64,000 bases of DNA, from NCBI RefSeq assembly GCF_036711975.1, contig NC_091970.1:3231501-3295500 (forward strand), in the 5' to 3' direction. The first letter of the stretch is position 1. The number at the start of each line of letters is the position of its first letter. Below, piece by piece: positions 2,099 through 61,405 of the stretch. Below the pieces are notes generated by a model. It saw nothing but the letters and a program-made list of their open reading frames with translations. It was not told the origin of the DNA and searched no databases. Made by a program: the position numbers and the translations under genes. The DNA comes from Onthophagus taurus (Eukaryota; Arthropoda; Insecta; Coleoptera; Scarabaeidae).

Positions 2099-2149
2099 TT
2101 ACCTGAGGTTTCTTGAGGTTGAGGTGCTGTTGTTATTATTGGTAACCAA

Positions 2150-4815
2150 TTTTGAGTTGGTGTTAGTACGTGATAATAAAATTTGGATGTAGTATGGTAT
2201 CAATAGGACTGCCTCAGCCGCAAGTGACCGCGGCTTGATTAAACGAAAACATAGATTTTCCATTCTAAGTTTATACGAAGTCGTTTGAGGCGCTGATGTT
2301 AGTAGATAGTAATCAATTTTAGGTTGATATGGTATCAATAGCAGTGCCTCGGCCGCAAGCGACTTCGGCTTAATCTTGCGAAGATAGATTTTCCGCTCTA
2401 AGTTTACTCCAAGTGTTGATTTTAGTAGCTGGTAATCACTTTTGGGTTTATTTGGTATCAATAGCACTGTCTCGGCCGCAAGCGACCTCGGCTTAATGCA
2501 GATTTTCCGCTCTAAGCTTACTCCAAGCGTTGATTTTAATAGCTGGTAATCAATTTTAGGTTGATATGGTATCAATAGCACTGCCTCGGCCGCAAGCGAC
2601 CTCTGCTTAATCTTGCAAATACAAATTTTCCGTTCTAAGCTTACTCCAAGCGTTGATTTTAGTAGCTGGTAATCACTTTTGTGTTGATTTGGTATCAATA
2701 GCACTGCCTCGGCCGCAAGCGACCTTGGCTTAATCCAGATTTTCTGCTCTAAGCTTACTCCCTGCGTTGATTTTAGTAGCTGGTAATCATTTTTGGGTTG
2801 ATTTGGTGTCAATAGCACTGCCTCGGCCGCAAGCGACCTCGGCTTAATCTTGCAAATACAGATTTTCCGTTCTAAGCTTACTCCAAGCGTTGATTTTAGT
2901 AGCTGGTAATCACTTTTGTGTTGATTTGGTGTCAATAGCACTGCCTCGGCCGCAAGCGACCTCGGCTTAATCTTGCAAATACAGATTTTCCGTTCTAAGC
3001 TTACTCCAAGGGTTGATTTTAGTAGCTGGTAATCATTTTTGGGTTGATTTGGTGTCAATAGCACTGCCTCGGCCGCAAGCGACCTCGGCTTAATCTTGCA
3101 AATACAGATTTTCCGTTCTAAGCTTACTCCAAGCGTTGATTTTAGTAGCTGGTAATCACTTTTGTGTTGATTTGGTGTCAATAGCACTGCCTCGGCCGCA
3201 AGCGACCTCGGCTTAATCTTGCAAATACAGATTTTCCGTTCTAAGCTTACTCCAAGCGTTGATTTTAGTAGCTGGTAATCACTTTTGTGTTGATTTGGTG
3301 TCAATAGCACTGCCTCGGCCGCAAGCGACCTCGGCTTAATCTTGCAAATACAGATTTTCCGTTCTAAGCTTACTCCAAGCGTTGATTTTAGTAGCTGGTA
3401 ATCATTTTTGGGTTGATTTGGTGTCAATAGCACTGCCTCGGCCGCAAGCGACCTCGGCTTAATCTTGCAAATACAGATTTTCCGTTCTAAGCTTACTCCA
3501 AGCGTTGATTTTAGTAGCTGGTAATCACTTTTGTGTTGATTTGGTGTCAATAGCACTGCCTCGGCCGCAAGCGACCTCGGCTTAATCTTGCAAATACAGA
3601 TTTTCCGTTCTAAGCTTACTCCAAGCGTTGATTTTAGTAGCTGGTAATCATTTTTGGGTTGATTTGGTGTCAATAGCACTGCCTCGGCCGCAAGCGACCT
3701 CGGCTTAATCTTGCAAATACAGATTTTCCGTTCTAAGCTTACTCCAAGCGTTGATTTTAGTAGCTGGTAATCATTTTTGGGTTGATTTGGTGTCAATAGC
3801 ACTGCCTCGGCCGCAAGCGACCTCGGCTTAATCCAGATTTTCCGCTCTAAGCTTACTCCAAGCGTTGATTTTAATAGCTGGTAATCAATTTTAGGTTGAT
3901 ATGGTATCAATAGCACTGCCTCGGCCGCAAGCGACCTCTGCTTAATCTTGCAAATACAAATTTTCCGTTCTAAGCTTACTCCAAGCGTTGATTTTAGTAG
4001 CTGGTAATCACTTTTGTGTTGATTTGGTATCAATAGCACTGCCTCGGCCGCAAGCGACCTTGGCTTAATCCAGATTTTCTGCTCTAAACTTACTCCATGC
4101 GTTGATTTTAGTAGCTGGTAATCAATTTTAGGTTGATATGGTATCAATAGCACTGCCTCGGCCGCAAGCGACCTCGGCTTAATCTTGCAAATACAGATTT
4201 TCCGTTCTAAGCTTACTCCAAGCGTTGATTTTAGTAGCTGGTAATCATTTTTGGGTTGATTTGGTGTCAATAGCACTGCCTCGGCCGCAAGCGACCTCGG
4301 CTTAATCTTGCAAATACAGATTTTCCGTTCTAAGCTTACTCCAAGCGTTGATTTTAGTAGCTGGTAATCATTTTTGGGTTGATTTGGTGTCAATAGCACT
4401 GCCTCGGCCGCAAGCGACCTCGGCTTAATCTTGCAAATACAGATTTTCCGTTCTAAGCTTACTCCAAGCGTTGATTTTAGTAGCTGGTAATCATTTTTGG
4501 GTTGATTTAGTGTCAATAGCACTGCCTCGGCCGCAAGCGACCTCGGCTTAATCTTGCAAATACAGATTTTCCGTTCTAAGCTTACTCCAAGCGTTGATTT
4601 TAGTAGCTGGTAATCATTTTTGGGTTGATTTGGTATCAATAGCACTGCCTCGGCCGCAAGCGACCTCGGCTTAATCCAGATTTTCCGCTCTAAGTTTACT
4701 CCAAACGCTGATTTTAGTAGCTGGTAATCACTTTTGGGTTGATATGTTATTAATAGCACTGCCTCGGCCGCAAGCGACCTCGGCTTAATTAAGTTTACCC
4801 AAGGTTGCATCCAGC
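2150..4815 (-). repeat. 123-bp tandem array, 22 copies (114-bp variant units mixed in)
   Basis: CCTCGGCCGC recurs at 2,821 and 2,944, giving a 123-bp period; a 114-bp variant, which lacks nine bases beside the core, runs for example 2,707-2,821. Each unit contains the core CGGCCGCAAGCGACCTCGG followed by CTTAA. Both periods are multiples of three, so one minus-strand frame stays open through all 22 copies and mimics a 903-codon gene. A three-unit block with a 114-bp junction appears twice (about 2,500-2,800 and 3,830-4,110), which shows block-wise amplification. Low-coordinate copies are more diverged than the centre, as expected of a homogenising satellite. Confidence 0.92.
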
Positions 4816-6117
4816 CGAGGCGTCAATTTAGAAACTCAATGGATTTTTAAATAATAATTATAAACAAAAATTTTCTTTATTATTTTATAATTACCCACGA
4901 GATTAGAAAACCTTTAAAAACCCAATTTAAAAAAAAAGTCCTTAACTTCCGTTTACTTTACATTTAAACGGCTTCAAGTGTGAATTTTAATTTCTCCGGG
5001 TATTTATATTTCTATGTATTTTTTATTTCCTCCTTTTCGTTTCGTATCGTTTCGCGACGAAGCTTTTTTAAGATCCCCCAAAAAAAGATCCCATCCGAGA
5101 TAGAACCGGAATGGGCCTTATTTAAATTTTAACCACCTTTCCGGCTCGAATTTCCGCAGAGAAAACACCGGGTTCGACAGCACAATGGAATTTTCATTAA
5201 GGTAACAACATTATCGAAGCACCCCCGATTCCCTTTGAGCATTTTCGACGCACCAAGTTGGATCCATCACGTGTTTATATTTCCAAATAATTTTTTTTTA
5301 ATTATCTCCCTTTTAAAGCTTTTTATAAAAAATTTTTCTTCATTGTTTAATAATAATAAAAGCTTTTGCGACGGTTAATAAGTGCTTTACCCTCGAAACA
5401 GTGAAGGTACAAGGGTTTAAACACCGTCATCAGCGAACAATAAGGGTCCCATTCTGCTGCGTTATTGAGTTCTCGAGAGTAAATAGGGAAAAGGAAATGC
5501 TAAATAGGCGATCTGAGTGTACGATAAAGTAGATCGCGCGATCTAGCGGGCGCCATCTGTTGAGGGGCGAGAACCGGAAGTGCTTTCATTGAGTCGTTTA
5601 TCTGGCGAGTTTCTAAGCCCCGTTTCGGCGCGAACCGGGACATTTATTAATGCTCCGAAGTGCTCGAGAAAGAAGCACTCCTTTTTCGATGGTGTGTTTC
5701 TTAACGACTTTTGCGGGGGGATATCGTTGCGGCGGATGTTTGAGATGTTAAATTTATTAATTTTCGAGCGGAACGTTTTTGATTGCGCCATAAAAATTAT
5801 TGCGATCGTAAAATTCGACGGCAATTATTCGGCATGGTAGGCGCAGGAAGTATGTTGTGTTATGGTAGAAATAGAATTTTAATTTAAATCATTTACCTGA
5901 TATTGTAGAGACGTGGTTAAACCAACCAATAACAATTAAGAGTAGATACTCTTTTATCTTCCTCATCTTGATCACCCTTTCAACTCATCAAACCCAAAAC
6001 GTCCCAAACTCACAAAATATCATAAAATCATTACAACCAAGTTCTCATCATCTTTAAATTTTAAGTGTCTCGAAAAACATCACATCATCACCGATTAAAT
6101 GAAATGTTTTATAAACT
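4816..6117. other. Intergenic, no gene recognised
   Basis: AT-rich spacer with a GC-richer patch at about 5,500-5,850 that carries short overlapping open frames on both strands without recognisable domains. A GCGCCATCT word, an insect CTCF-like core in reverse, occurs near 5,549. Nothing else is supported. Confidence 0.5.
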
Positions 6118-17449: not shown

Positions 17450-18375
17450 CTAGAACTTGAAATATTCAGATTTGTTCAGAATAGTGTTAGTTCTATGCAT
17501 AAGATGTTACTATGTTGTATATTTTTATTGAAGTACAACTAGAACGAGAAGTAGGTTTAGTCGTGAAAAAAACTTTCAGTTGTTAATGTCAACTTTAATT
17601 TTATTATTATATTCGTAATCTTCATGAAATAACCTTTAAAGTGAGTCCAAACTTGACACATTTATCTCCAAAAAGTTTTAATTTTGACATATTTGTCAAC
17701 TTCATAAAAAATCCTTTAAAATGAGTCCGAACTCGACATATTTAACTATAATATTAATGGAAATACAATCACTTCCGGTTTGAAATGTCAACGTCAATTT
17801 TGACATATTCGTCATCTTCATTAAAAAACCTTTAAAATGAGTACAAACACGACGCACTTATCTCGAAAAACAAAAAAGTTAGAATAAAAAACATTAAACC
17901 CGAAGTTAGCAATTTAATTTTTAAATATTAATACCAACCTTAATTTTTGATTTTTTTTTATTATATTTTTGTTTTTGTGACAAATATTAAGACGTTTTAT
18001 GAAAATTATGAATATGTCAAAATGACATTGACATTTCAAACCGGAAATTGCTTATATCTCCATTAATATTAGAATTAAACGTATCATGTTTGGACTCATT
18101 TTAACGGATTTTTCACGACGATTACAAATATGTCAAAATTGACGTTGACATTCTTAACCGGAAGTTGACCATAACTTCATTAATATTGAAGATAAATATG
18201 TCGTGTTTGTACTCATTTTAAAGGATTTTTAATGAAGATTACAAATATGTCAAAATTGAGGTTGAAATTTTAAACCTGAAGTTAGTTATCATGTAATAGA
18301 AGTTTTATAACAAATTAATCTAGTGTTAGACACTTTTCCGCACACTCTTTTTATTTTTAACGTGTTTTTTTGAAA
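17450..18375. repeat. Second copy of the dispersed composite repeat
   Basis: Same order of elements as at 7,338-7,990: a hexamer-rich arm, TAGTCGTGAAAAAACTTTCAG, then repeated blocks with CCTTTAAAATGAGT (near 17,630, 17,715 and 17,830) and GACATTGACATTTC. Long stretches are nearly identical between the copies, so dispersal was fairly recent. This copy has extra internal repeats. Confidence 0.8.
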
Positions 18376-18470: not shown

Positions 18471-21400
18471 TTAATAACCGCGATAATTTTTGGCACGTTC
18501 ATAAATAAGTTCTTTCGACGCCGGGAAAAAAGTTAACAAATGCCTCCAATCTTGATACTTTAAAACAATAACAATGGTAGTTTCCACACACCTATAACTA
18601 TATTTATAAGTCGTATTTTCATAAACACCTTGCACGATACCAAACGACTCCCCAACTTCTAAAGTAGCCACAACTTGATTTCTAAATATATCGCTAATAA
18701 CCTCAACCTTCCCCTGTAAGATACAAAACAAAGAGTCCTCGACGTTATCCCTAAATTGAAGGTAACCGTTATCGAACGACATCCGAAAAGTGACCTTACT
18801 GATCATTTGCCTTAAAAAATCTTGGTGGCAATCTTTGAAAATGGGGTGATTCATAAAGAATTTGTTGCAACATGAAGCTAAAACGACGTCTTTTATGTAG
18901 GGATTCATGGTTTCTAGGAGTGATGGGTATTGGACACCTTTGTAAAGGTACCAGAGGAGGTCGGTGTACGTGGACATTCTCCACATAACAGCGGCGTCCA
19001 AATCTTGAGAGACGCAATAAAATTCTAATCGTCGCCGAATCATTTTAAACGTTAAATGAATTTGGTTAACTTCTGCAATCGAGCAGAATACTTGCCCGAA
19101 AATGATCGCTTTTAAGCTGTGGTTAATTAACATCATTATGGCAAATATAATCATAATTAGTGGGTGTTGCGGGGAGTAGGAGTATTGCGCGGTTAACGTT
19201 AAACTATACGTAACGATCGACAATAACCTGCTATGAAGGACACCCATTTGATAGCCATCCATGCTGTGTAATTTACTGCAAGAATAAACGTGGGGTATCA
19301 TATTAATAGTTAAGCAACAAGCTAAAACTCCAAGAATCGCGGCCATTCCACACAAAACCAAAGACGTCCACACAAATATAAAAGCAAATCTGATTACGTA
19401 AAGATTAATTTTTAATTTTCTATTCATAATATCGAAAAATTCGACGATATAAGAAAGTCGAAGCATACGATTCATCCTAAATATACTATAAACGGTTTTT
19501 ATTACCTCAGCTTCAATCGGCAATAAGAAAATGAGGAGATCAAACGGGATAATACTACAAAAAGTTAACCAATACTTAAATTTATTTTCGTAATTTCTCG
19601 CTTTAATTTTTTTAGGGTCACGCACCAAAACCCCGTTATCGTTGATATAAGCAATCCGATTTCGCAAAATAAAATGAACGGCGAAGAGGACGTCGCAAAA
19701 ATATTGGCAAGAAATAATCCAATAACTGTGATTCCCAGTACTCATTTGAAAAAAATCCAACAAAATCCCAAAATAACACGGCAACAATAATTGACAAGTT
19801 AACCAAAATCGAATCAAAAATGAGTCGGGGTTGTAAGTTTTAACGCAAGGAATATTTTTTTTGATTTCATCTTCATCTAATTCCCCGGGGGCGAGGATTT
19901 TGAGTAAACCGGGGATGTAAAAGGTGTGTTTTAGGGTGAGAGTATCAAATTCGGTTTTCGTTGTAGGAAATTTCGATAAAATCGAATGAAATTGTCTACT
20001 TTTTACGCTGATTAATTCGACGTGGCAATTCGCGAGGACGCTAACTTTGGCGCGACTCATTTCGGTGTTCTTTAAATTCCCGATTATTGACCCGGAAGAT
20101 AACGTGGTTAACACAGTCCCATCGGGAGCTATAACATCGACGTTACCTCGAATAATCACGTCGATAGTCGTTGTTACATCATTAATCGTTAAAGCATATC
20201 CATCTTTAACAACAACGTCGTAATTCGATATTGAGATGATGTTTTTGTAAAAAGAGATCGATTTTGATTTAAACGGTGAAGTTTGATACGCTAATTTTCC
20301 GTAATGATCGAATAAGATGTCGATTTGGATCGGGTGGTGGAGTTTGTTGATCACGTATTGAAGCGGTTTTCCTTGGGAGAGCTCGAATTTGTTTTCGCAA
20401 CAAGTTATGGCGAGTTTTTGTAGATTTTTCGGGATGTTTAATAGTTTCATGAAGGCTAATAATTGCTTCATTGCGTGTTGGTACTCGATTAAGAGGCCGT
20501 GTCGGTGCATGAAATGCGTCATCACGTACCCCGTTGCTATAATTAATAAAGTTTGCCCGATTAACCCCGAAATTTGGACGAGAATTTGGGTGTTTTTGTG
20601 AATTACCACGAAATTTTGCCAATTCGTTGATGTTATAAACGAGATTCCTATGTAAAATCCGATTGCTTGGGCTAACGTGGGAGTTAAGGGTGTAACGAGA
20701 TAATTTGTCACAAAGGATTGGTCAATACAGGTGGATGAGATGTTTTTGGGCAAATTTGAGGAAGAAACCGCGAAATCGCACTCGGTGTGGATTATGAGGC
20801 TCCCAAAAAAATTTCCAATCACCAACAAAATCGGGAGATACGATATGATATAAATCGGGGGAACCCCCGTTAATGAATCAACCTGCTTTAAATACATAAA
20901 ACTTAGATATCGATGGATTTGCAACAACCGATTTCCGTACATCATGAAATAACTCACATTATCGTAAGGCATCGAAGCGAAATTAAGCGGCAAAACCCCT
21001 AATAAATCCATCAAAAAGCCGTGCGAGAAATAATGTTTTGCTGTAATTAAGGGATGCGTCACTAAAATCCCATCGGGGTTATAAAAACAAACGTGCATTC
21101 TCACGTAAATATCAACATAAGCGGTTATGTCTAATAAAATAAGCACGAATTTAAACGGGGTTAAATGAATCGGCGGGATCATGTAGAGAATCGCCGAGAA
21201 AATCGCGAAAAAGCACCGAAAAATCTCCCAAATCATCAAAAATTTGCTATCGGGGTAAATCGTTACCCTTAAAAACAACACTCTAAGAGTACTAAACGGG
21301 TAAAGCCGATCAAAAGGGACGTAATAATCGTATTCTTCTCGACTCCCATGAACAAAATTGTACCCGAACGAATGAAATTGTTTCTTTTTTGGTAACTCTT

Positions 21401-24400
21401 TCGGGGGAATAACCGAATTTTTGTGTAACTTAATTAATTCTTGTGAGATATCGGAACATTTTGAGATGGTTTTATTTAAAATTTCGTTTAATTCGGGGTG
21501 TTTAAGCATGGATAATCTTAAATCTTCGAGATTAAAAACGACGAATCGATTCACGGTGATTGTTCGCATCGTAAACAAAGTCGGCGTGTTTAATAATCCC
21601 GGAACTAAATTAATCACGCGATGTTCCGTTTCGTCTTCTTGCCCCAAAACGTTCCCGAATTCATCGATAATCTCGATAATCCCGAAATACTTGATGTAAC
21701 ATTTTTTGAAATAATCCCCGCTGTAAACGATGATTTCATTCGGAGGTAACGTCTCAACACTCATAATCGAGTACATCTCATCGGTGATTTCGCCCAAAAA
21801 TTCGTTAAAAAACTCAAAATGTTTCCAAATACTCGAAGTGATCGCGTTGATTGTTGCGTTGTGTAGTTGTTGGGTTACTTTTGAGAGGTAAAATAAATTC
21901 GAGCGGAGATTCACCCCAAGATTTTCCTCGCACTGGAGTTTTAAATACTCGGACGTTCTTAATTTATAAATTTTCGGGGTTCTCATCAAATCCAATTTCG
22001 TGATGACGTCGTTGCAATATTGTTGCGAATAAACCCGATTAGATTGCGAAATAAGAATCGATGAGATCACTAAAATCGTTTTAATCATTTGGAAAATTTG
22101 AAACAAAGCGTTCAAAATCACGAAAAAAATCTCATGGTGGGATTGCAAATGATATCCTTCGATTGGTAACCCGAGCACCGACATTAAAGTGGTCCAATAC
22201 AACAAAGTATTCGATTTGGTATCTTTAACCATATAAATTAAGACGCAATAAACGAAATAAATGATGTAAACTTGGAGGATTGTGTATCTGATTAAGCTAA
22301 TTACCGCGACGTTTGCGTTAAATTGTTTTTCGTAGTCGTTTAGCATCGTGGTGAGGGTGTACATTTTTAATAAGCGGTTTAATCGCAACATAGCCGAGGT
22401 TTGAGCGTTTAAATCGGTTAAAATGATCGACGTAAAAGTCTCCAAAGGAATCGAGGCCCCCATATCGGTCCAAAATTCCACCTCTTTGAGCCGATACAAA
22501 AAGATCTTCCTCATTTTTGTGGTAACCCCCGTTCTGTTGATAACAGCGGTCGATAACTTTAAATAAATGTGTCCTATGTAAATTAGGGTCACGATGTAGA
22601 TGGAAAAGAAATTTTTTGGGTCAACCTCTATGAACGCCATGTAAGGGATTAATAAGCAGGCGTAAATCGCGGTTGCGGCCACTAAATACTTGTATAGAAT
22701 TATTATAACCGCATCGGGTTGGAAAACATAAGGAAAGGTCGTTTTTACGAAAATCGTGTTTCTTTCTTCGTCGTACCGCTCGGCGATGCACAACATATCT
22801 AAGTAGTTCGCGGTGAAAATCATCGAGTTAAAAACGCTTTCATCGGTTTGATGCAACAAATAGATATTTTGCAACTCGTGTCTTCGCCTCGCATCCTCGT
22901 TAATCGACATTATCTTATGCAGCGTAAATTTAATCCATTGTATGGTGTATTTGTTTTGATTTTGGAGCTTCTCCGAGTTTTTACTCGCCACATCAGATCG
23001 ATTTTTCAAAATTTTCGCCTCAATCAACCTCTCTTTAATCCTCGATTTCAAAATAATCGCAACCCCGCGTAATTTCCTCATCAACTTAACAAAATCTTTC
23101 TTCTCAATAATGAGCAACTCGCAAAACGTTTTGCATTGGACCGAATTATTCGAGCGATACGGCACAATCAAAGAAAACTCCCCGATACAAGTCCCGTGCG
23201 TTAGCGAAATAATCGGGGATTCCCCGTCGATCTCCGACAGCAAATTTATAACCCCCGACACCACGTACACCATTTTATTCTTAATCTCCCCCTTTTTATA
23301 AACAAATTCCCCGCTAACCAAATATCGCTGCTTAATCAAATCGGATAATTGGAGCATCACGTACATATCGAAGTCGTGGAACAATTTTGAGTGTTGAAAC
23401 GCGGGTAATGAGACATCAAAAAGGATTTCTTTCCTTAGAGCCGGGTGGCAGGCTTTGATAAAAAAGCTCGTATCTTGACTGTACCCCCCGCAAAACTTCC
23501 ACATCTTATTAAAATATTTCGTGGTTTGATTCTGCAACAAAACGGGAACCCCGTAAAGTTCTTGAACGCGGTGAAACGAGCGGTACAAAAAGATATAACT
23601 AAACTTGAGTATCCCCGAAGAAATCACCGTATAAATAACTTGCACGATACACGGCGTTATCAAAACAACAAACGAAGTCACCACGAAAATCGATCCCGCA
23701 AAGTTCCAAGTAACACTACTCGTATCGTCGTTCAACGAAGGAATCAACCCAATCGCCGAAATCCCCATCACGACGATCTTAAACGGGTTATTGCAAATCT
23801 CGTCGTGGGTACTCTCAAAGTTGCAATGAAACGCGATTAAGCTCAAAGAAAACGCAAAAATCCCCATCACCAAAACGATACAAATCACGATCGATTTGGT
23901 AATCAACAAAGAATAATAAACGCGCAAAAAATATAGCGACCTAATCACCCGCATCAAATATTTCAACAAAATCAAACAATGTATCTTCTTGTACCCCGAA
24001 AGAAAGCTCCAAGTCGGGACCAAATCAACGAACGGGATTAACGTGAAAGCTTCGATCGTTAACACGAAATAAGTCCGATCGGCCAAAGAAATTAGCGGCT
24101 TCTTCACTCGTAATATCTTAACGAGAAAGACTCCGATTACGTCGTAACCATACAAGTAATCGAAACTTTTTAAAACTTCTACAATAAAAAGATTAAATTA
24201 ATTTTGAAAAAGAATCGAATTAAATTAAAAGACTCACGATTAGTTGAACCTGAAATTGGGGCGCATAATTGGGTGGCTGCGAAAAATAAGTTCATATTGA
24301 ACTGGACCATCACGATGACCATCATGGAGCAGTACCAAACTGGGTCGAAAGGGAGCATGATTAACATGTTGATTATCCGGGATTTAATCGCGTTGCGAAT

Positions 24401-24487
24401 TGCCTTTTTAAATCGGTGCCATAGATTTCGTAATCTCCTTTTGATGTGAATCGATTTGGATAAAGCTTGAAATTTTAAATTACGCAT
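18471..24487 (-). CDS. Four-repeat cyclic-nucleotide-gated-channel-like protein, 1,985 aa
   Basis: Exon 1 is 24487-24238 and exon 2 is 24178-18471, with a 59-base intron (donor GTGAGT, acceptor TTGTAG) in frame. The first ATG (context ACAAAAATG) was chosen. Four units of about 490 residues follow one another. Each has membrane helices, an S4-like segment with few basic residues (near 154, 679, 1161, 1650), a pore-loop-like segment (near 210, 741, 1253, 1735) and a CNBD-like beta roll (about 359-456, 888-979, 1399-1489, 1881-1973). FRMNRMLRLSYIVEFFDI and MLRLNRLLK match the CNG-type S4, and GVLVRDPKKI the CNG/HCN S2-S3 linker. No pore has GYG or the CNG filter; unit II (LLYWTTLMSVLGLP) and unit IV (SLTLTAQYSYSP) keep its outline. 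Phosphate-cassette residues are partly kept in units I and III and lost in II and IV. Known four-repeat relatives are the CNGK channels of sea urchin and fish sperm. This may be a divergent CNGK-like channel, or a membrane sensor that no longer conducts. Confidence 0.85.
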
Positions 24488-24951: not shown

Positions 24952-26269
24952 GTTCGTGGTCTTGTAACTAATTACCGTCCTATATCTATTTTACCAATAA
25001 TGGGAAAAATCTTTGAAAAATTGGTTTACAGCAGGCTATTTTTTTCAGATAAAGCCCTCTGTGAGTGCGGAGCAACACGGTTTTTATCCGGGGCGATCTG
25101 TGGACACCAACTTGTTAGAATATACCGACTTTCTTTTTTCGACTATTGATAAAAACATCCAAGTAGATGCGATATACACTGACTTTAGCAAAGCTTTTGA
25201 CAAACTGGATCATTGTTTATTACTGTTGAAGTTGGAGCGCGTTGGTGTCGCAGGTGTCCTTTTGAGCTGGTTTGCTTCGTACCTCTCCAATCGCACGCAG
25301 GTGGTTGGGGTTGGCGGATATTTGTCCGGTCCTGTTATCATGTCTTCCGGAGTGCCTCAGGGTAGTCATGTGGGCCCGCTCTTGTTTACGGTGTACATAG
25401 GTGACATCACCAGGTCTTTTCTTACCTCAAGATGTCTTATGTATGCTGACGACATTAAAATATTTTCTTCTGTTGCTGCTGTTTCAGACTGTGTTAACCT
25501 TCAGAATGACCTGAACAGATTTTATGATTTTTGTGAGATTAATAATTTGTCACTTAACATATCGAAGTGTCGGATTGTTACTTTTACGAGAAAAAAGCAG
25601 TTCTTTAAATTTGATTACCGGTGCGGAGCATGCTTATTGGATCGTGTTGACACTATTAAAGACCTGGGCATTACTTTAGATAGCAAACTACTGTTTGATC
25701 AACACGTTGATGCAGTGGTGGCCAGAGCTAATAGGATGCTGGGATTTGTAATGCGCTCTTCTGAATCGTTTTGCTGCCCTAGACCTATTATTTCTTTATA
25801 CAATGCTTTCGTTAATAGTATTTTATCGTTCGGCAGTACAGCTTGGAACCCTCAGTACGACGCATACATTAACAGAATAGAGAGGATTCAGATAAGGTTT
25901 CTGAAGTATCTCTCGCATAAATTCCGGCATCCTTATACAGATTACGAATCTGCCTGTCAAATGTATCATGTGCCCACACTTCAGCAGCGCAGAACTTGCA
26001 GTGATGCCTGCTTTCTGTTCAGGTTGGTCAGAGGTTACTGTGATTCTTTCTATCTTCTTTCACGCATTGATCTGCATGTTCCCCCTCGTCGGCTGCGCTA
26101 TGACTTTCTGTTCTATGCGCCGACTGCCCGGACAAATTCGTATAGAAATTCCCCAATTCTTCGCATGGAGAGGACAGTGGACCGTCTTGGGTTGGACATA
26201 TTCGCCGTCACGCCTCACAACTTCAAACAAATTATTCGTAATGCCGTGCTCGCCCTACCAGTTGTGTGA
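24952..26269 (+). pseudogene. LINE reverse transcriptase, truncated and frameshifted
   Basis: The N-terminal part reads TNYRPISILPIMGKIFEKL in one frame. At a T-run near 25,038-25,044 the reading moves to the frame that holds the rest, to a stop at about 26,269. Visible motifs are EQHGFYPGRS, TDFSKAFD (polymerase block A), SGVPQGSHVGPLLF, and YADDIKIF with the catalytic Asp pair, followed by the thumb-like region. The endonuclease and ORF1 are missing, and the one-base frame change makes the copy non-autonomous. The rest of the RT frame has no stops, so the insertion is not old. It lies just upstream of the channel-like gene and on the opposite strand. Confidence 0.88.
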
Positions 26270-35929: not shown

Positions 35930-38900
35930 GATCCTAAAAACATTCTCTTTTTTCCTAAATAAATTGGAATTATAAAATAAAACCACTTTTCAATTTGACA
36001 CTTTAAAAATTACTTTATCAAAAAAAATTTTTTTTTCTCTAATACAGCTAGGAATTAAGAAATAAAACTTTTTGGGATTGTAAAAGAATGTTTGAGGTTA
36101 GGTTATACCAAATTTAAAGTTTCTAAATTAAACGGTTCTGTTTATAAAAATGATTAAATTTCATCGATTTCAATTTGACGTTTTTGGACAATAAGATTAA
36201 GAAAATACTTGTTTCTCCAATACAGTTTGAAAATAAGAAATGAAACTTTTTGAGGTTATAAAAGAATATTTGAGGTTAGGTTATACCAAATTTAAAGTTT
36301 CTAGATTAAACGGTGCTGTTTATAAAAATGTTTAAAGTTCATTGATTTCAATTTGACGTTTTTGGACAATAAGATTAAGAAAAAATTTTTTTTCAATACA
36401 ATTTGAAAATAAGAAATTAAACTTTTTGAGGTTATAAAAGAATGTTTGAGGTTAGGTTATACCAAATTTAAAGTTTCTAAATTAAACGGTTCTGTTTATA
36501 AAAATGTTTAAATTTCATCGATTTCAATTTGACGTTTTTAGACAATAAGATTAAGAAAATACTTTTTTCTCCAATACAGTTTGAAAATAAGAAATGAAAC
36601 TTTTTGAGGTTATAAAAGAGTGTTTGAGGTTAGGTTATACCAAATTTAAAGTTTCTAGATTAAACGGTGCTGTTTATAAAAATTTTTAAAGTTCATTGAT
36701 TTCAATTTGACGTTTTTGGACAATAAGATTAAGAAAAAAAATTTTTCTCCAATGCGGTTTGGAATTGAGAAATGAAACTTTTTGAGGTTATAAAAGAATG
36801 TTTGAGGTTAGGTTATACCAAATTTAAAGTTTCTAGATTAAACGGTTCTGTTTATAAAAATGTTTAAAGTTCATCGATTTCAATTTAACATTTTTGGACA
36901 ATAAGATTAAGAAAATTTTTTTTTCAATACAATTTGAAAATAAGAAATGAAACTTTTTGAGGTTATAAAAGAATGTTTGAGGTTAGGTTATACCAAATTT
37001 AAAGTTTCCAGGTTAAACGGTGCTGTTTATAAAAATGTTTAAAGTTCATAAATTTCAATTTGACGTTTTTGGACAAAAAGATTAAGAAAAAACTTTTTTC
37101 TCCAATGCGGTTTGGAATTGAGAAATGAAACTTTTTGAGGTTATAAAAGAATGTTTGAGGTTAGGTTATACCAAATTTAAAGTTTCTAGATTAAACGGTT
37201 CTGTTTATAAAAATGTTTAAAGTTCATCGATTTCAATTTAACATTTTTGGACAATAAGATTAAGAAACTTTTTTTTTTCAATACAATTTGAAAATAAGAA
37301 ATGAAACTTTTTGAGGTTATAAAAGAATGTTTGAGGTTAGGTTATACCAAATTTAAAGTTTCCAGGTTAAACGGTGCTGTTTATAAAAATTTTTAAAGTT
37401 CATAAATTTCAATTTGACGTTTTTGGACAATAAGATTAAGAAAAAACTTTTTTCTCCAATGCGGTTTGGAATTGAGAAATGAAACTTTTTGAGGTTATAA
37501 AAGAATGTTTGAGGTTAGGTTATACCAAATTTAAAGTTTCTAGATTAAACGGTTCTGTTTATAAAAATGTTTAAAGTTCATTGATTTCAATTTGACGTTT
37601 TTGGACAATAAGATTAAGAAAAAACTTTTTTCTCCAATGCGGTTTGGAATTGAGAAATGAAACTTTTTGAGGTTATAAAAGAATGTTTGAGGTTAGGTTA
37701 TACCAAATTTAAAGTTTCTAGATTAAACGGTGCTGTTTATAAAAATTTTTAAAGTTCATAAATTTCAATTTGACGTTTTTGGACAATAAGATTAAGAAAA
37801 AACTTTTTTCTCCAATGCGGTTTGGAATTGAGAAATGAAACTTTTTGAGGTTATAAAAGAATGTTTGAGGTTAGGTTATACCAAATTTAAAGTTTCTAGA
37901 TTAAACGGTGCTGTTTATAAAAATGTTTAAAGTTCATTGATTTCAACTTGACGTTTTTGGACAATAAGATTAAGAAAATACTTTTTTCTCCAATACAGTT
38001 TGAAAATAAGAAATGAAACTTTTTGAGGTTATAAAAGAATGTTTGAGGTTAGGTTATACCAAATTTAAAGTTTCTAGATTAAACGGTGCTGTTTATAAAA
38101 ATGTTTAAATTTCATCGCTTTCAATTTGACGTTTTTGGACAATAAGATTAAGAAAATACTTTTTTCTCCAATACAGTTTGAAAATAAGAAATGAAACGTT
38201 TTGAGGTTATAAAAGAATGTTTGAGGTTAGGTTATACCAAATTTAAAGTTTCTAGATTAAACGGTGCTGTTTATAAAAATTTTTAAAGTTCATTGATTTC
38301 AATTTGACGTTTTTGGACAATAAGATTAAGAAAAAAAATTTTTCTCCAATGCGGTTTGGAATTGAGAAATGAAACTTTTTGAGGTTATAAAAGAATGTTT
38401 GAGGTTAGGTTATACCAAATTTAAAGTTTCTAGATTAAACGGTTCTGTTTATAAAAATGTTTAAAGTTCATCGATTTCAATTTAACATTTTTGGACAATA
38501 AGATTAAGAAACATTTTTTTTTTCAATACTATTTGAAAATAAGAAATGAAACTTTTTGAGGTTATAAAAGAATGTTTGAGGTTAGGTTATACCAAGTTTA
38601 AAGTTTCCAGGTTGAACGGTTCTTTTTATAAAAATGTTTAAAGTTCATAAATTTCAATTTGACGTTTTTGGACAACAAGCTTAAGAAAATACTTTTTTCT
38701 CCAATACAGTTTGAAAATAAGAAATGAAACTTTTTGAGGTTATAAAAGAATGTTTGAGGTTAGGTTATACCAAATTTAAAGTTTCCAGGTTAAACGGTGC
38801 TGTTTATAAAAAATTTTAAAGTTCATTGATTTCAATTTGACGTTTTTGGACAATAAGATTAAGAAAAATTTTTTTTTTCAATACAATTTGAAAATAAGAA

Positions 38901-40260
38901 ATGAAACTTTTTGAGGTTATAAAAGAATGTTTGAGGTTAGGTTATACCAAATTTAAAGTTTCTAAATTAAACGGTTCTGTTTATAAAAATGTTTAAAGTT
39001 CATCGATTTCAATTTAACATTTTTGGACAATAAGATTAAGAAACATTTTTTTTTTCAATACTATTTGAAAATAAGAAATGAAACTTTTTGAGGTTATAAA
39101 AGAATGTTTGAGGTTAGGTTATACCAAGTTTAAAGTTTCCAGGTTGAACGGTTCTTTTTATAAAAATGTTTAAAGTTCATAAATTTCAATTTGACGTTTT
39201 TGGACAACAAGCTTAAGAAAATACTTTTTTCTCCAATACAGTTTGAAAATAAGAAATGAAACTTTTTGAGGTTATAAAAGAATGTTTGAGGTTAGGTTAT
39301 ACCAAATTTAAAGTTTCCAGGTTAAACGGTGCTGTTTATAAAAAATTTTAAAGTTCATTGATTTCAATTTGACGTTTTTGGACAATAAGATTAAGAAAAA
39401 TTTTTTTTTTCAATACAATTTGAAAATAAGAAATGAAACTTTTTGAGGTTATAAAAGAATGTTTGAGGTTAGGTTATACCAAATTTAAAGTTTCTAAATT
39501 AAACGGTTCTGTTTATAAAAATGTTTAAATTTCATCGATTTCAATTTGCGTTTTTGGACAATAAGATTAAGAAAATACTTGTTTCTCCAATACAGTTTGA
39601 AAATAAGAAATGAAACTTTTTGAGGTTATAAAAGAATGTTTGAGGTTAGGTTATACCAAATTTAAAGTTTCTAGATTAAACGGTGCTGTTTATAAAAATG
39701 TTTAAAGTTCATAAATTTCAATTTGACGTTTTTGGACAATAAGATTAAGAAAAAACTTTTTTCTCCAATGCGGTTTGGAATTGAGAAATGAAACTTTTTG
39801 AGGTTATAAAAGAATGTTTGAGGTTAGGTTATACCAAATTTAAAGTTTCTAGATTAAACGGTTCTGTTTATAAAACCGTTTAAAGTTCATTGATTTCAAT
39901 TTGACGTTTTTGGATAGTAAGATTAAGAAAAAAATTTTTTTTTAATACAATTTGAAAATAAGAAATGAAACTTTTTGAGGTTATAAAAGAATGTTTGAGG
40001 TTAGGTTATACCAAATTTAAAGTTTCTAGATTAAACGGTGCTGTTTATAAAAATGTTTAAAGTTCATAAATTTCAATTTGACGTTTTTGGACAATAAGAT
40101 TAAAGAAAAAACTTTTTTCTCCAATGCGGTTTGGAATTGAGAAATGAAACTTTTTGAGGTTGTAAAAGAATGTTTGATGTTAGGTTATTTAACCAAATTT
40201 AAAGTTTCCAAGTCAAACAGTTTTTTAGAATTTTCAAATTGTTTTGTAATTGTGAAATAA
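35930..40260. repeat. ~177-bp satellite array, about 23-24 copies, with a 532-bp duplicated block
   Basis: GAGGTTAGGTTATACC recurs at 36,094, 36,272, 36,448, 36,626 and on to about 40,170, giving a 176-178 bp period. Each unit has a near-constant half (GAAACTTTTTGAGGTTATAA, then GAGGTTAGGTTATACC) and a variable half after the A/T-run. Two alternating unit types differ at TCCAATGCGGTTTGG versus TCAATACAATTTG. A three-unit block at about 38,440-38,980 is repeated almost unchanged 532 bp further on, including the rare AACAAGCTTAAG variant. Edge copies are diverged. Unit length is close to a nucleosome repeat, typical of satellites. Confidence 0.95.
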
Positions 40261-57529: not shown

Positions 57530-57850
57530 CATTTTCGTCTTAATTTAAGCGGAGGTAACTTGCGGCCGAGGCGCTATACAATATTGTATCAAGATGGTAA
57601 CAATTGTATAGCAAAGCGACCTCGGTTAAAGTAAAATCATCAATGTGATAGCAATTTAGCCTCTGCTGCAAGCAACCTCGGGTTAAGTAAATGATGTAAC
57701 ATTTTTTGCTGTATCTTAAGCCAAAGTTGCTTGTAACCGAAGCGGCACAACATATGCTGTCTAATTTTGTATCGATGTGATAACAATTTTGCCTCGGCCG
57801 CAAGCGACCTCGGCTTAGGTAAGTCAAGGTCACTTACAGCCGAGACGCTA
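57530..57850. repeat. Diverged satellite-core units next to the SH2 exon
   Basis: Several inverted pairs of the GC-rich core in degraded form (57,550, 57,620, 57,660, 57,720), and one perfect CGGCCGCAAGCGACCTCGG at about 57,797. They lead up to the 3' end of the SH2 gene. Confidence 0.75.
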
Positions 57851-59994: not shown

Positions 59995-61405
59995 ATTTTG
60001 TAGAACACCCATTGCAGCGCCTCGGCCACTTGGTGACCTTGGTTTAAATTAAGACGAAAATATATAATATACTTAAGCCGAGGTCGCTTGCGGCCGAGGC
60101 AGAATTTCTACCACATCGATGCATCATGCCGATACAATATTGTATAACATATATTGCAGCCGTTTCGGCTTAAATTATGGCAACAATATATGACGTATAT
60201 CTAGATATAAAAATATCTATCACATCGATACATCATCAAGTAACCATGCCGATATATATTGTATAAAACATATTGTAGCGTCTCGGCCGCAAGCGATCTC
60301 GGCTTAAATTATGGCATAAATATATGACGTAGTCTACTTAAGCCGAGGTCGCTTGCGGCCGAGGCAGAATATCTATCACATCGATACATCATTAAGTAAC
60401 CATGTCCATATATTTTGTATAAAACATATTGTAGCGCATCGGCCGCAAGCGACCTCGGCTTAAATTATGGCATAAATACATAACGTGGTTTACTTAAACC
60501 GAGGTCGCTTGCGGCCGAGGCAGAATATCTATCACATCGATACATCATTAAGTAACCATGTCCATATATTTTGTATAAAACATATTGTAGCGCATCGGCC
60601 GCAAGCGACCTCGGCTTAAATTATGGCATAAATATATAACGTTGTTTACTTAAACCGAGGTCGCTTGCGGCCGAGGCAGAATATCTATCACATCGATACA
60701 TCATTAAGTAACCATGTCCATATATTTTGTATAAAACATATTGTAGCGTCTCGGCCGCAAGCGACCTCGGCTTAAATTATGGCATAAATACATAACGTGG
60801 TTTACTTAAACCGAGGTCGCTTGCGGCCGAAGCAGAATATCTATCACATCGATACATCATTAAGTAACCATGTCCATATATATTGTATAAAACATATTGT
60901 AGCGTCTCGGCCGCAAGCGACCTCGGCTTAAATTATGGCATAAATATATGACGTAGACTACTTAAGCCGAGGTCGCTTGCGGCCGAGGCAGAATATCTAT
61001 CACATCGATACATCATTAAGTAACCATGTCCATATATTTTGTATAAAACATATTGTAGCGCCTCGGCCGTAAGCGACCTCGGCTTAAATTATGGCATAAA
61101 TATATGACATGGTCTACTTAAGCCGAGGTAGCTTGCGGCCGAGGCAGAATTTCTACCACGCGATACATCATTAAGTAACCATGCCGATACAATATTGTAT
61201 AACATATTATATTATAGCGCCTCGTGTGGTAGAAATTTTGCCTCGGCCGCTAGCGACCTTAATTACACAACTTCATATATTTCCGTCTTAAAATAAGCCA
61301 TCGCTTGCGATCGAGGCGCCGCAATGTAGCCAATACAATATATATTTAATGTTGCATCGATGTGATAGCAATTCTGCCTCGGCCGCAAGCGACCTCGGCT
61401 GAAAT
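59995..61405. repeat. 156-bp satellite with palindromic units, about nine copies
   Basis: GTAGCG-type unit starts lie at 60,275, 60,431, 60,587, 60,743, 60,899 and 61,055, exactly 156 bp apart, with diverged copies on both edges. In each unit the core CGGCCGCAAGCGACCTCGG and its inverted complement face each other about 30 bp apart, so single strands can form a ~26-bp stem. The other half of the unit (ACATCGATACATCATTAAGT) is not palindromic. The array separates the SH2 exon from its inverted decayed copy. Confidence 0.94.

Follow-up and report, generated by a model that had tools for sequence, protein, structure and literature searches.

Gene structure

We analysed a window of 64,000 nucleotides from the beetle Onthophagus taurus (assembly GCF_036711975.1, contig NC_091970.1, forward-strand positions 3,231,501 to 3,295,500); all positions below count from its first letter. 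The minus strand of this window carries an intact, four-repeat gene that resembles channels with a cyclic nucleotide-binding domain (CNBD). An earlier note, made from the sequence alone, had placed the gene at 18471-24487, and these coordinates were borne out by a two-exon minus-strand model with an uninterrupted frame of 1,985 codons. Its features are as follows:

18471-24487, minus strand: whole gene, two exons, encoding a protein of 1,985 amino acids
24238-24487, minus strand: exon 1, with the start codon, the N-terminus and transmembrane segment S1 of unit 1
24179-24237, minus strand: intron of 59 bp, GT-AG
18471-24178, minus strand: exon 2, with the remainder of unit 1, units 2-4 and the stop codon
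18446-18451, minus strand: AATAAA, some 20 bp past the stop codon

A second AATAAA lies past the gene end at 18355-18350 on the minus strand. Exon 1 comprises 250 nucleotides from the ATG at 24487, and exon 2 comprises 5,708 nucleotides and ends with the TAA at 18471; the spliced open reading frame (ORF) of 5,958 nucleotides has no internal stops. Splice signals and domain fit are the sole grounds for joining the two exons. A chance ORF was rejected because the exon 2 frame runs through 1,908 open codons, a length whose probability, given how often stops occur in the window, is about 2e-56. The codon evidence for the gene is modest: the codon-usage score is 0.006 in the gene's frame (-0.006 for unit 1 alone) and ranges from -0.019 to -0.051 in the five alternative frames, and seven neighbouring coding stretches, the same stretches that trained the score, have 0.03-0.06. 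The genes around it are eukaryotic and would suit an animal genome. No credible further copy resembling cyclic nucleotide-gated (CNG) channels was found outside the gene by tblastn across the window, nor did the viral contigs of IMG/VR hold a relative of the exon 2 protein (three pattern matches, no relative by tblastn).

The G+C content at third codon positions drops steadily along the protein, from 0.55 in unit 1 through 0.50 and 0.47 to 0.40 in unit 4 (18474-24176), the neighbouring coding stretches lying at 0.25-0.39, and a single exon holds 5.7 kb out of a coding region of 6.0 kb. This gradient and the near-single-exon structure may reflect a retrocopy or the loss of introns.

Matches of the four units to known channels

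The protein was cut into four units at points of our own choosing (residues 1-497, 498-1005, 1006-1515 and 1516-1985), with a spacing of about 500 residues:

22938-24176, minus strand: unit 1, exon 2 part (residues 85-497)
21414-22937, minus strand: unit 2 (residues 498-1005), the farthest diverged from known channels
19884-21413, minus strand: unit 3 (residues 1006-1515)
18474-19883, minus strand: unit 4 (residues 1516-1985), best PDB match CNGA3

The Pfam cyclic nucleotide-binding family PF00027 was matched by units 1 (E-value 2.1e-11), 3 (4.2e-4) and 4 (3.3e-6), with no match in unit 2. Taken singly, only unit 1 passed the curated cutoff of 27.5 bits (44.1 bits, with 27.4 for unit 4 and 20.7 for unit 3); the uncut exon 2 protein scored 93 bits over three stretches. 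In phmmer searches of the PDB the region of unit 4 matched CNGA3 (4.5e-16) in an alignment spanning the whole channel core, unit 1 matched CNGB1 (1.1e-10), with the C-linker and CNBD as its best stretch, and unit 3 matched SthK (1e-9). Unit 2 gave only KAT3, at 0.014.

A profile built from seven solved CNBD channels scored 119.8 bits with unit 4, 90.3 with unit 3, 80.8 with unit 1 and 54.4 with unit 2; among 404 control sequences (400 shuffled locally and four reversed) the highest score was 4.5 bits. In unit 1 the alignment to this profile starts only at S6; hydropathy and a low-confidence model are weak evidence that the transmembrane half of this unit would also be channel-like. As KAT3 had been picked through unit 2, the profile was rerun without it, and unit 2 still scored 31.2 bits against 6.3 for the best control. 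It also exceeded the controls with a profile of HCN1, KCNH1 and SthK (15.6 against 8.4 bits) and with one of KCNH1 only (6.7 against 4.0 bits). Judged by these profiles, unit 2 is a genuine, far-diverged CNBD-channel-like unit. The earlier note's claim of one gene with four channel-like units thus held, with PF00027 in three units and the seven-channel profile in all four, and, as read from its sequence, the protein carries four CNBD-channel-like units on a single chain. That note had named a lack of significant matches in at least three of the four units as the outcome that would speak against it; at least three units do match, so this outcome did not occur.

Predicted structures of units 1 and 2

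AlphaFold2 models were made of unit 2 and of unit 1 without S1, which sits in exon 1, from an alignment of 22 bacterial CNBD channels with the other units. The unit 2 model contains, besides six transmembrane-like helices and a pore helix, both a C-linker and the beta-roll of a CNBD; its mean predicted local distance difference test (pLDDT) score is 75.8. In a Foldseek search all of its best 50 of 485 matches (E <= 0.001) were CNBD channels, the top match reaching 5.2e-17 over 461 columns. The unit 1 model has a mean pLDDT of 70.6, with values of about 82-95 in the CNBD blocks and a mixed C-linker, and its best 50 of 615 Foldseek matches were likewise all CNBD channels.

Pore filter, S4 and nucleotide-binding cassettes

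A motif search of the 1,985-residue protein found neither G[YF]G nor TIGE. The equivalents of the selectivity filter were read by hand from alignments as follows:

23739-23759, minus strand: unit 1, SAIGLIP (TTIGETP in CNGA), read by hand; pLDDT below 50 here
22161-22181, minus strand: unit 2, SVLGLPI, read by hand; in the model a pore helix is predicted to end here
20619-20639, minus strand: unit 3, FITSTNW, register unsure
19173-19193, minus strand: unit 4, TAQYSYS, register unsure

The corresponding residues in the references are TTIGETP in CNGA, TIGGLPD in CNGB1, CIGYG in HCN1, SVGFG in KCNH1 and TIGYG in SthK. The filter is described as highly conserved across CNBD channels, with the metazoan CNG channels as the one clade that is an exception (PMC7576140). 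The S4 segments of units 2, 3 and 4 retain NR[LM]L as CNGA does, and their basic residues are spaced three positions apart in units 2 and 4 and six apart in unit 3.

The phosphate-binding cassettes were examined in the same way. In HCN2 the residues that contact the cyclic nucleotide monophosphate (cNMP) include E582, R591 and T592. The four cassettes read:

23139-23195, minus strand: unit 1, Gly-Glu retained, Arg replaced by Ser and Thr by Asn
21552-21614, minus strand: unit 2, poorly aligned, Gly-Glu missing, with an Arg-Thr pair (residues 955-956) near the expected place
20037-20093, minus strand: unit 3, Glu replaced by Asn, the key Arg by Ala and Thr by Lys
18594-18653, minus strand: unit 4, Glu replaced by Ile, Arg-Thr lost

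The motif R[TS]A occurs nowhere in the protein, and in none of the four units does the alignment keep the full Gly-Glu and Arg-Thr contact set together.

Kinship of the four repeats

Pairwise identity among the repeats is 12-20% in MAFFT alignments. The Z-scores of the unit pairs were 12.7 for units 3 and 4, 7.0 for 2 and 4, 4.6 for 1 and 4, 4.1 for 2 and 3, 2.3 for 1 and 3, and 1.2 for 1 and 2, and those of units paired with channels spanned 2.7-26.4. Unit 4 scored 26.4 with KCNH1 and 25.3 with CNGA3, unit 3 scored 21.6 with SthK, 18.1 with KCNH1 and 17.4 with HCN1, and unit 2 scored best with KAT3 (14.5). The repeats are closer to known channels than to one another, as is expected when two fast-evolving rows are compared. 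A tree was computed from 24 rows, comprising the four units, the seven solved channels and 13 of 58 listed bacterial ORFs, with no CNGK or insect CNG channel among them. The terminal branches of the four units measure 3.4-4.2 changes per column, and because these branches are so long the tree cannot place the units.

Comparison with known channel families

CNGA supplies the best PDB match of unit 4 and CNGB that of unit 1. These channels resemble the protein in the style of S4, and the filter of unit 1 can be aligned to TTIGETP of CNGA. They differ in having a single repeat per chain, the TIGE filter (CNGA) and a canonical cassette; membership of CNGA/CNGB was rejected on the four units in one chain and the absence of TIGE. 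SthK, a bacterial CNBD channel and the best PDB match of unit 3, is a homotetramer with one repeat per chain and a TIGYG filter. HCN channels, with one unit per chain and a CIGYG filter, fit in neither respect, and an ordinary CNG or HCN gene was rejected in view of the four units in one frame. The four-domain Nav/Cav channels, which have four repeats of six transmembrane segments with no CNBD in each, were also rejected, given the CNBD family in three repeats and the absence of an Ion_trans match. KCNH channels (EAG/ERG) have an N-terminal PAS domain, a single repeat per chain and a GFG filter, whereas no such PAS domain is seen in the protein here. KCNH1 nevertheless scores as high as CNGA3 with unit 4 and nearly as high as SthK with unit 3, and KCNH channels are not gated through their CNBD by cyclic nucleotides (PMC7576140), a point of likeness to the reading proposed below.

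Four repeats in one chain, each with six transmembrane segments and a CNBD, form the layout of the CNGK (tetraKCNG) channels of sea urchin, Ciona and zebrafish. The protein shares this layout, with unit 2 and the transmembrane half of unit 1 as its weak parts, and would by inference share the pseudotetramer. CNGK, however, has a GYG/GFG potassium filter (PMC4749565) and nearly identical repeats (PMC6259924). A working cNMP site is described for the third repeat of ApCNGK (PMC4749565); unit 3 here has Asn and Ala in its cassette, and all four cassettes appear degenerate. We did not file the protein as CNGK because it has neither GYG/GFG nor TIGE, no full cassette, and repeats that are only 12-20% identical. 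Zebrafish CNGK is gated by pH although its CNBDs are termed canonical (PMC4749565). CNGKs are named from choanoflagellates, from marine invertebrates, among them a sponge, an anemone and a tunicate, and from fish (PMC4749565, PMC7576140), and four-repeat CNBD channels act in the sperm of sea urchin, ascidian and zebrafish (PMC4749565, PMC8835908). The earlier note knew of no described insect gene with this layout, and we too found no insect CNGK or four-repeat channel named in the accessible text of the open literature searched; an unnamed insect family may sit in public annotation.

Interpretation

The reading that we favour, with a probability of roughly 50%, is that the product of the gene is a channel protein of one chain, evolving fast and built to the CNGK layout. 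Its four units would fold as one pseudotetramer around a single pore, an arrangement in which each unit could diverge separately. Since the potassium filter is absent, the protein would not be a potassium channel; with neither that filter nor the ring of glutamates of CNG channels, the pore may be an unusual cation pore or permanently closed. As no CNBD has the full set of cNMP contacts, gating, if any, would be by another signal. On the residues present, cyclic nucleotides are probably not the gating signal; their place might be taken by voltage, by pH or, as in KCNH, by an intrinsic ligand, and the CNBDs could together make up a structural gating ring. The simplest origin would be descent from an ancient CNGK gene.

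Several observations weigh against this reading. The earlier note had proposed a profile search for cNMP-binding and ion-transport domains, and only the cNMP-binding domain was matched, in units 1, 3 and 4 and not in unit 2 taken alone: PF00520 (Ion_trans) was absent from the listed matches of all units at E-values up to 10, in a search whose filters drop most weak matches. With the narrowest profiles unit 2 did not rise above the controls (-2.0 bits with HCN1 and KCNH1, -0.2 with CNGA3 and CNGA2, 1.3 with HCN1 and -1.5 with CNGA3). The registers of filters and cassettes are uncertain at such divergence, those of the filters of units 3 and 4 most of all. In CNGK repeat 1 pairs with 3 and repeat 2 with 4 (PMC7576140); this pairing is not seen here, the closest pair being units 3 and 4 with only 2.3 for units 1 and 3, a matter that such fast rows cannot settle. 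In the free tree the four units do not form one clade, an arrangement that was nevertheless not rejected by the approximately unbiased test (p-AU 0.186). Structure prediction, which the earlier note had also suggested, recovered the CNBD-channel fold for units 1 and 2, but with low TM-scores and a poor N-terminal part of unit 1: among the listed matches the query-normalised TM-scores were 0.36-0.45 for unit 2 and 0.38-0.45 for unit 1, under 0.5 throughout, and pLDDT fell below 50 in the first 54 modelled residues of unit 1 and in its filter stretch. The models indicate fold compatibility and are not independent proof, because the bacterial CNBD rows in the alignment carry that fold and so partly impose it.

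The same four-unit protein could have arisen by independent fusion, insect CNG-type genes having been duplicated and joined in tandem so that the likeness to CNGK would be convergent. We consider this origin rather unlikely. It draws on the best matches of unit 1 to CNGB1 and unit 4 to CNGA3, on the resemblance of the unit 4 S4 (RMNRML...EFFD) to that of CNGA (RFNRLL...EFFD), and on the unit 1 filter SAIGLIP, which by hand reading fits both TTIGETP of CNGA and TIGGLP of CNGB1 without gaps. Set against these are the pair Z-scores, which place unit 4 as near KCNH1 as CNGA3 and give SthK and KAT3 as the best partners of units 3 and 2, together with the long branches and a comparison set free of insect CNG and CNGK sequences. 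Concerning function rather than origin, a tentative case can be made for a pseudochannel that is made and folded around a non-conducting central pore, serving as a voltage or ligand sensor or as a scaffold, or conducting through its voltage-sensor part. All four filters depart from the potassium motif and from the TIGE of CNG, although across CNBD channels other than metazoan CNG this stretch shows high conservation (PMC7576140); loss of the motif does not, however, demonstrate loss of conduction, and the S4 charges are few.

Very long branches, lost motifs and the weak codon-usage signal (0.006, and -0.006 in unit 1, beside 0.03-0.06 in the neighbours) would also be expected of a decaying gene, its function gone and its frame open only because the loss is recent. 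Such decay is improbable, given 1,908 open codons, intact splice and polyadenylation signals, recognisable folds in all four units and a codon score that is higher in the gene's frame than in the other five. It is more improbable still that four genes or exons have been misread as one: exon 1 is attached by splice signals and domain fit, but units 2-4 and most of unit 1 share one uninterrupted frame, so no joining is needed for those.

The favoured reading, of a fast-evolving channel with the CNGK layout, can be carried further, though tentatively. A single-chain pseudotetrameric CNBD channel of ancient origin may have been kept in an insect lineage, with the potassium filter and canonical cyclic nucleotide binding lost from each of its four repeats. 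The result would be either a pore whose four walls differ, having evolved separately, and whose selectivity is new, or a pseudochannel that senses voltage or pH. A version from a land animal, with neither the potassium filter nor a full nucleotide signature, would show the fate of a channel of this kind when its task in sperm chemotaxis has gone, and would offer a single-chain template in which the four pore positions have each evolved separately. A role in sperm or in a sense organ is conjecture.

Other features of the window

A 27-bp motif (CCTCGGCCGCAAGCGACCTCGGCTTAA) occurs 36 times at up to two mismatches, with none expected, at 2347-4788, 57792-57818 and 60073-61403. Most copies lie in two otherwise dissimilar tandem arrays with units of 123 bp and 156 bp, the second of which holds them in both orientations; the motif may be the end of a mobile element or a binding box spread via satellites. 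Its 24-base core was not found in the viral contigs of IMG/VR. An open frame of 907 codons on the minus strand at 2099-4822 consists mainly of the 123-bp (41-codon) satellite read in frame, and is most likely not a gene. The window has no Rfam match at the gathering threshold and no tRNA or tmRNA gene according to ARAGORN. At 36031-40208 a 178-bp satellite is present in 23.5 copies, within a stretch of low G+C content (0.24) and strong GC skew. Nearer to the channel-like gene, a reverse-transcriptase fragment (PF00078) at 25001-26269 begins about 510 bp upstream of the start codon, and imperfect 117-bp repeats (2.3 copies, 18011-18283) lie directly downstream of the gene.

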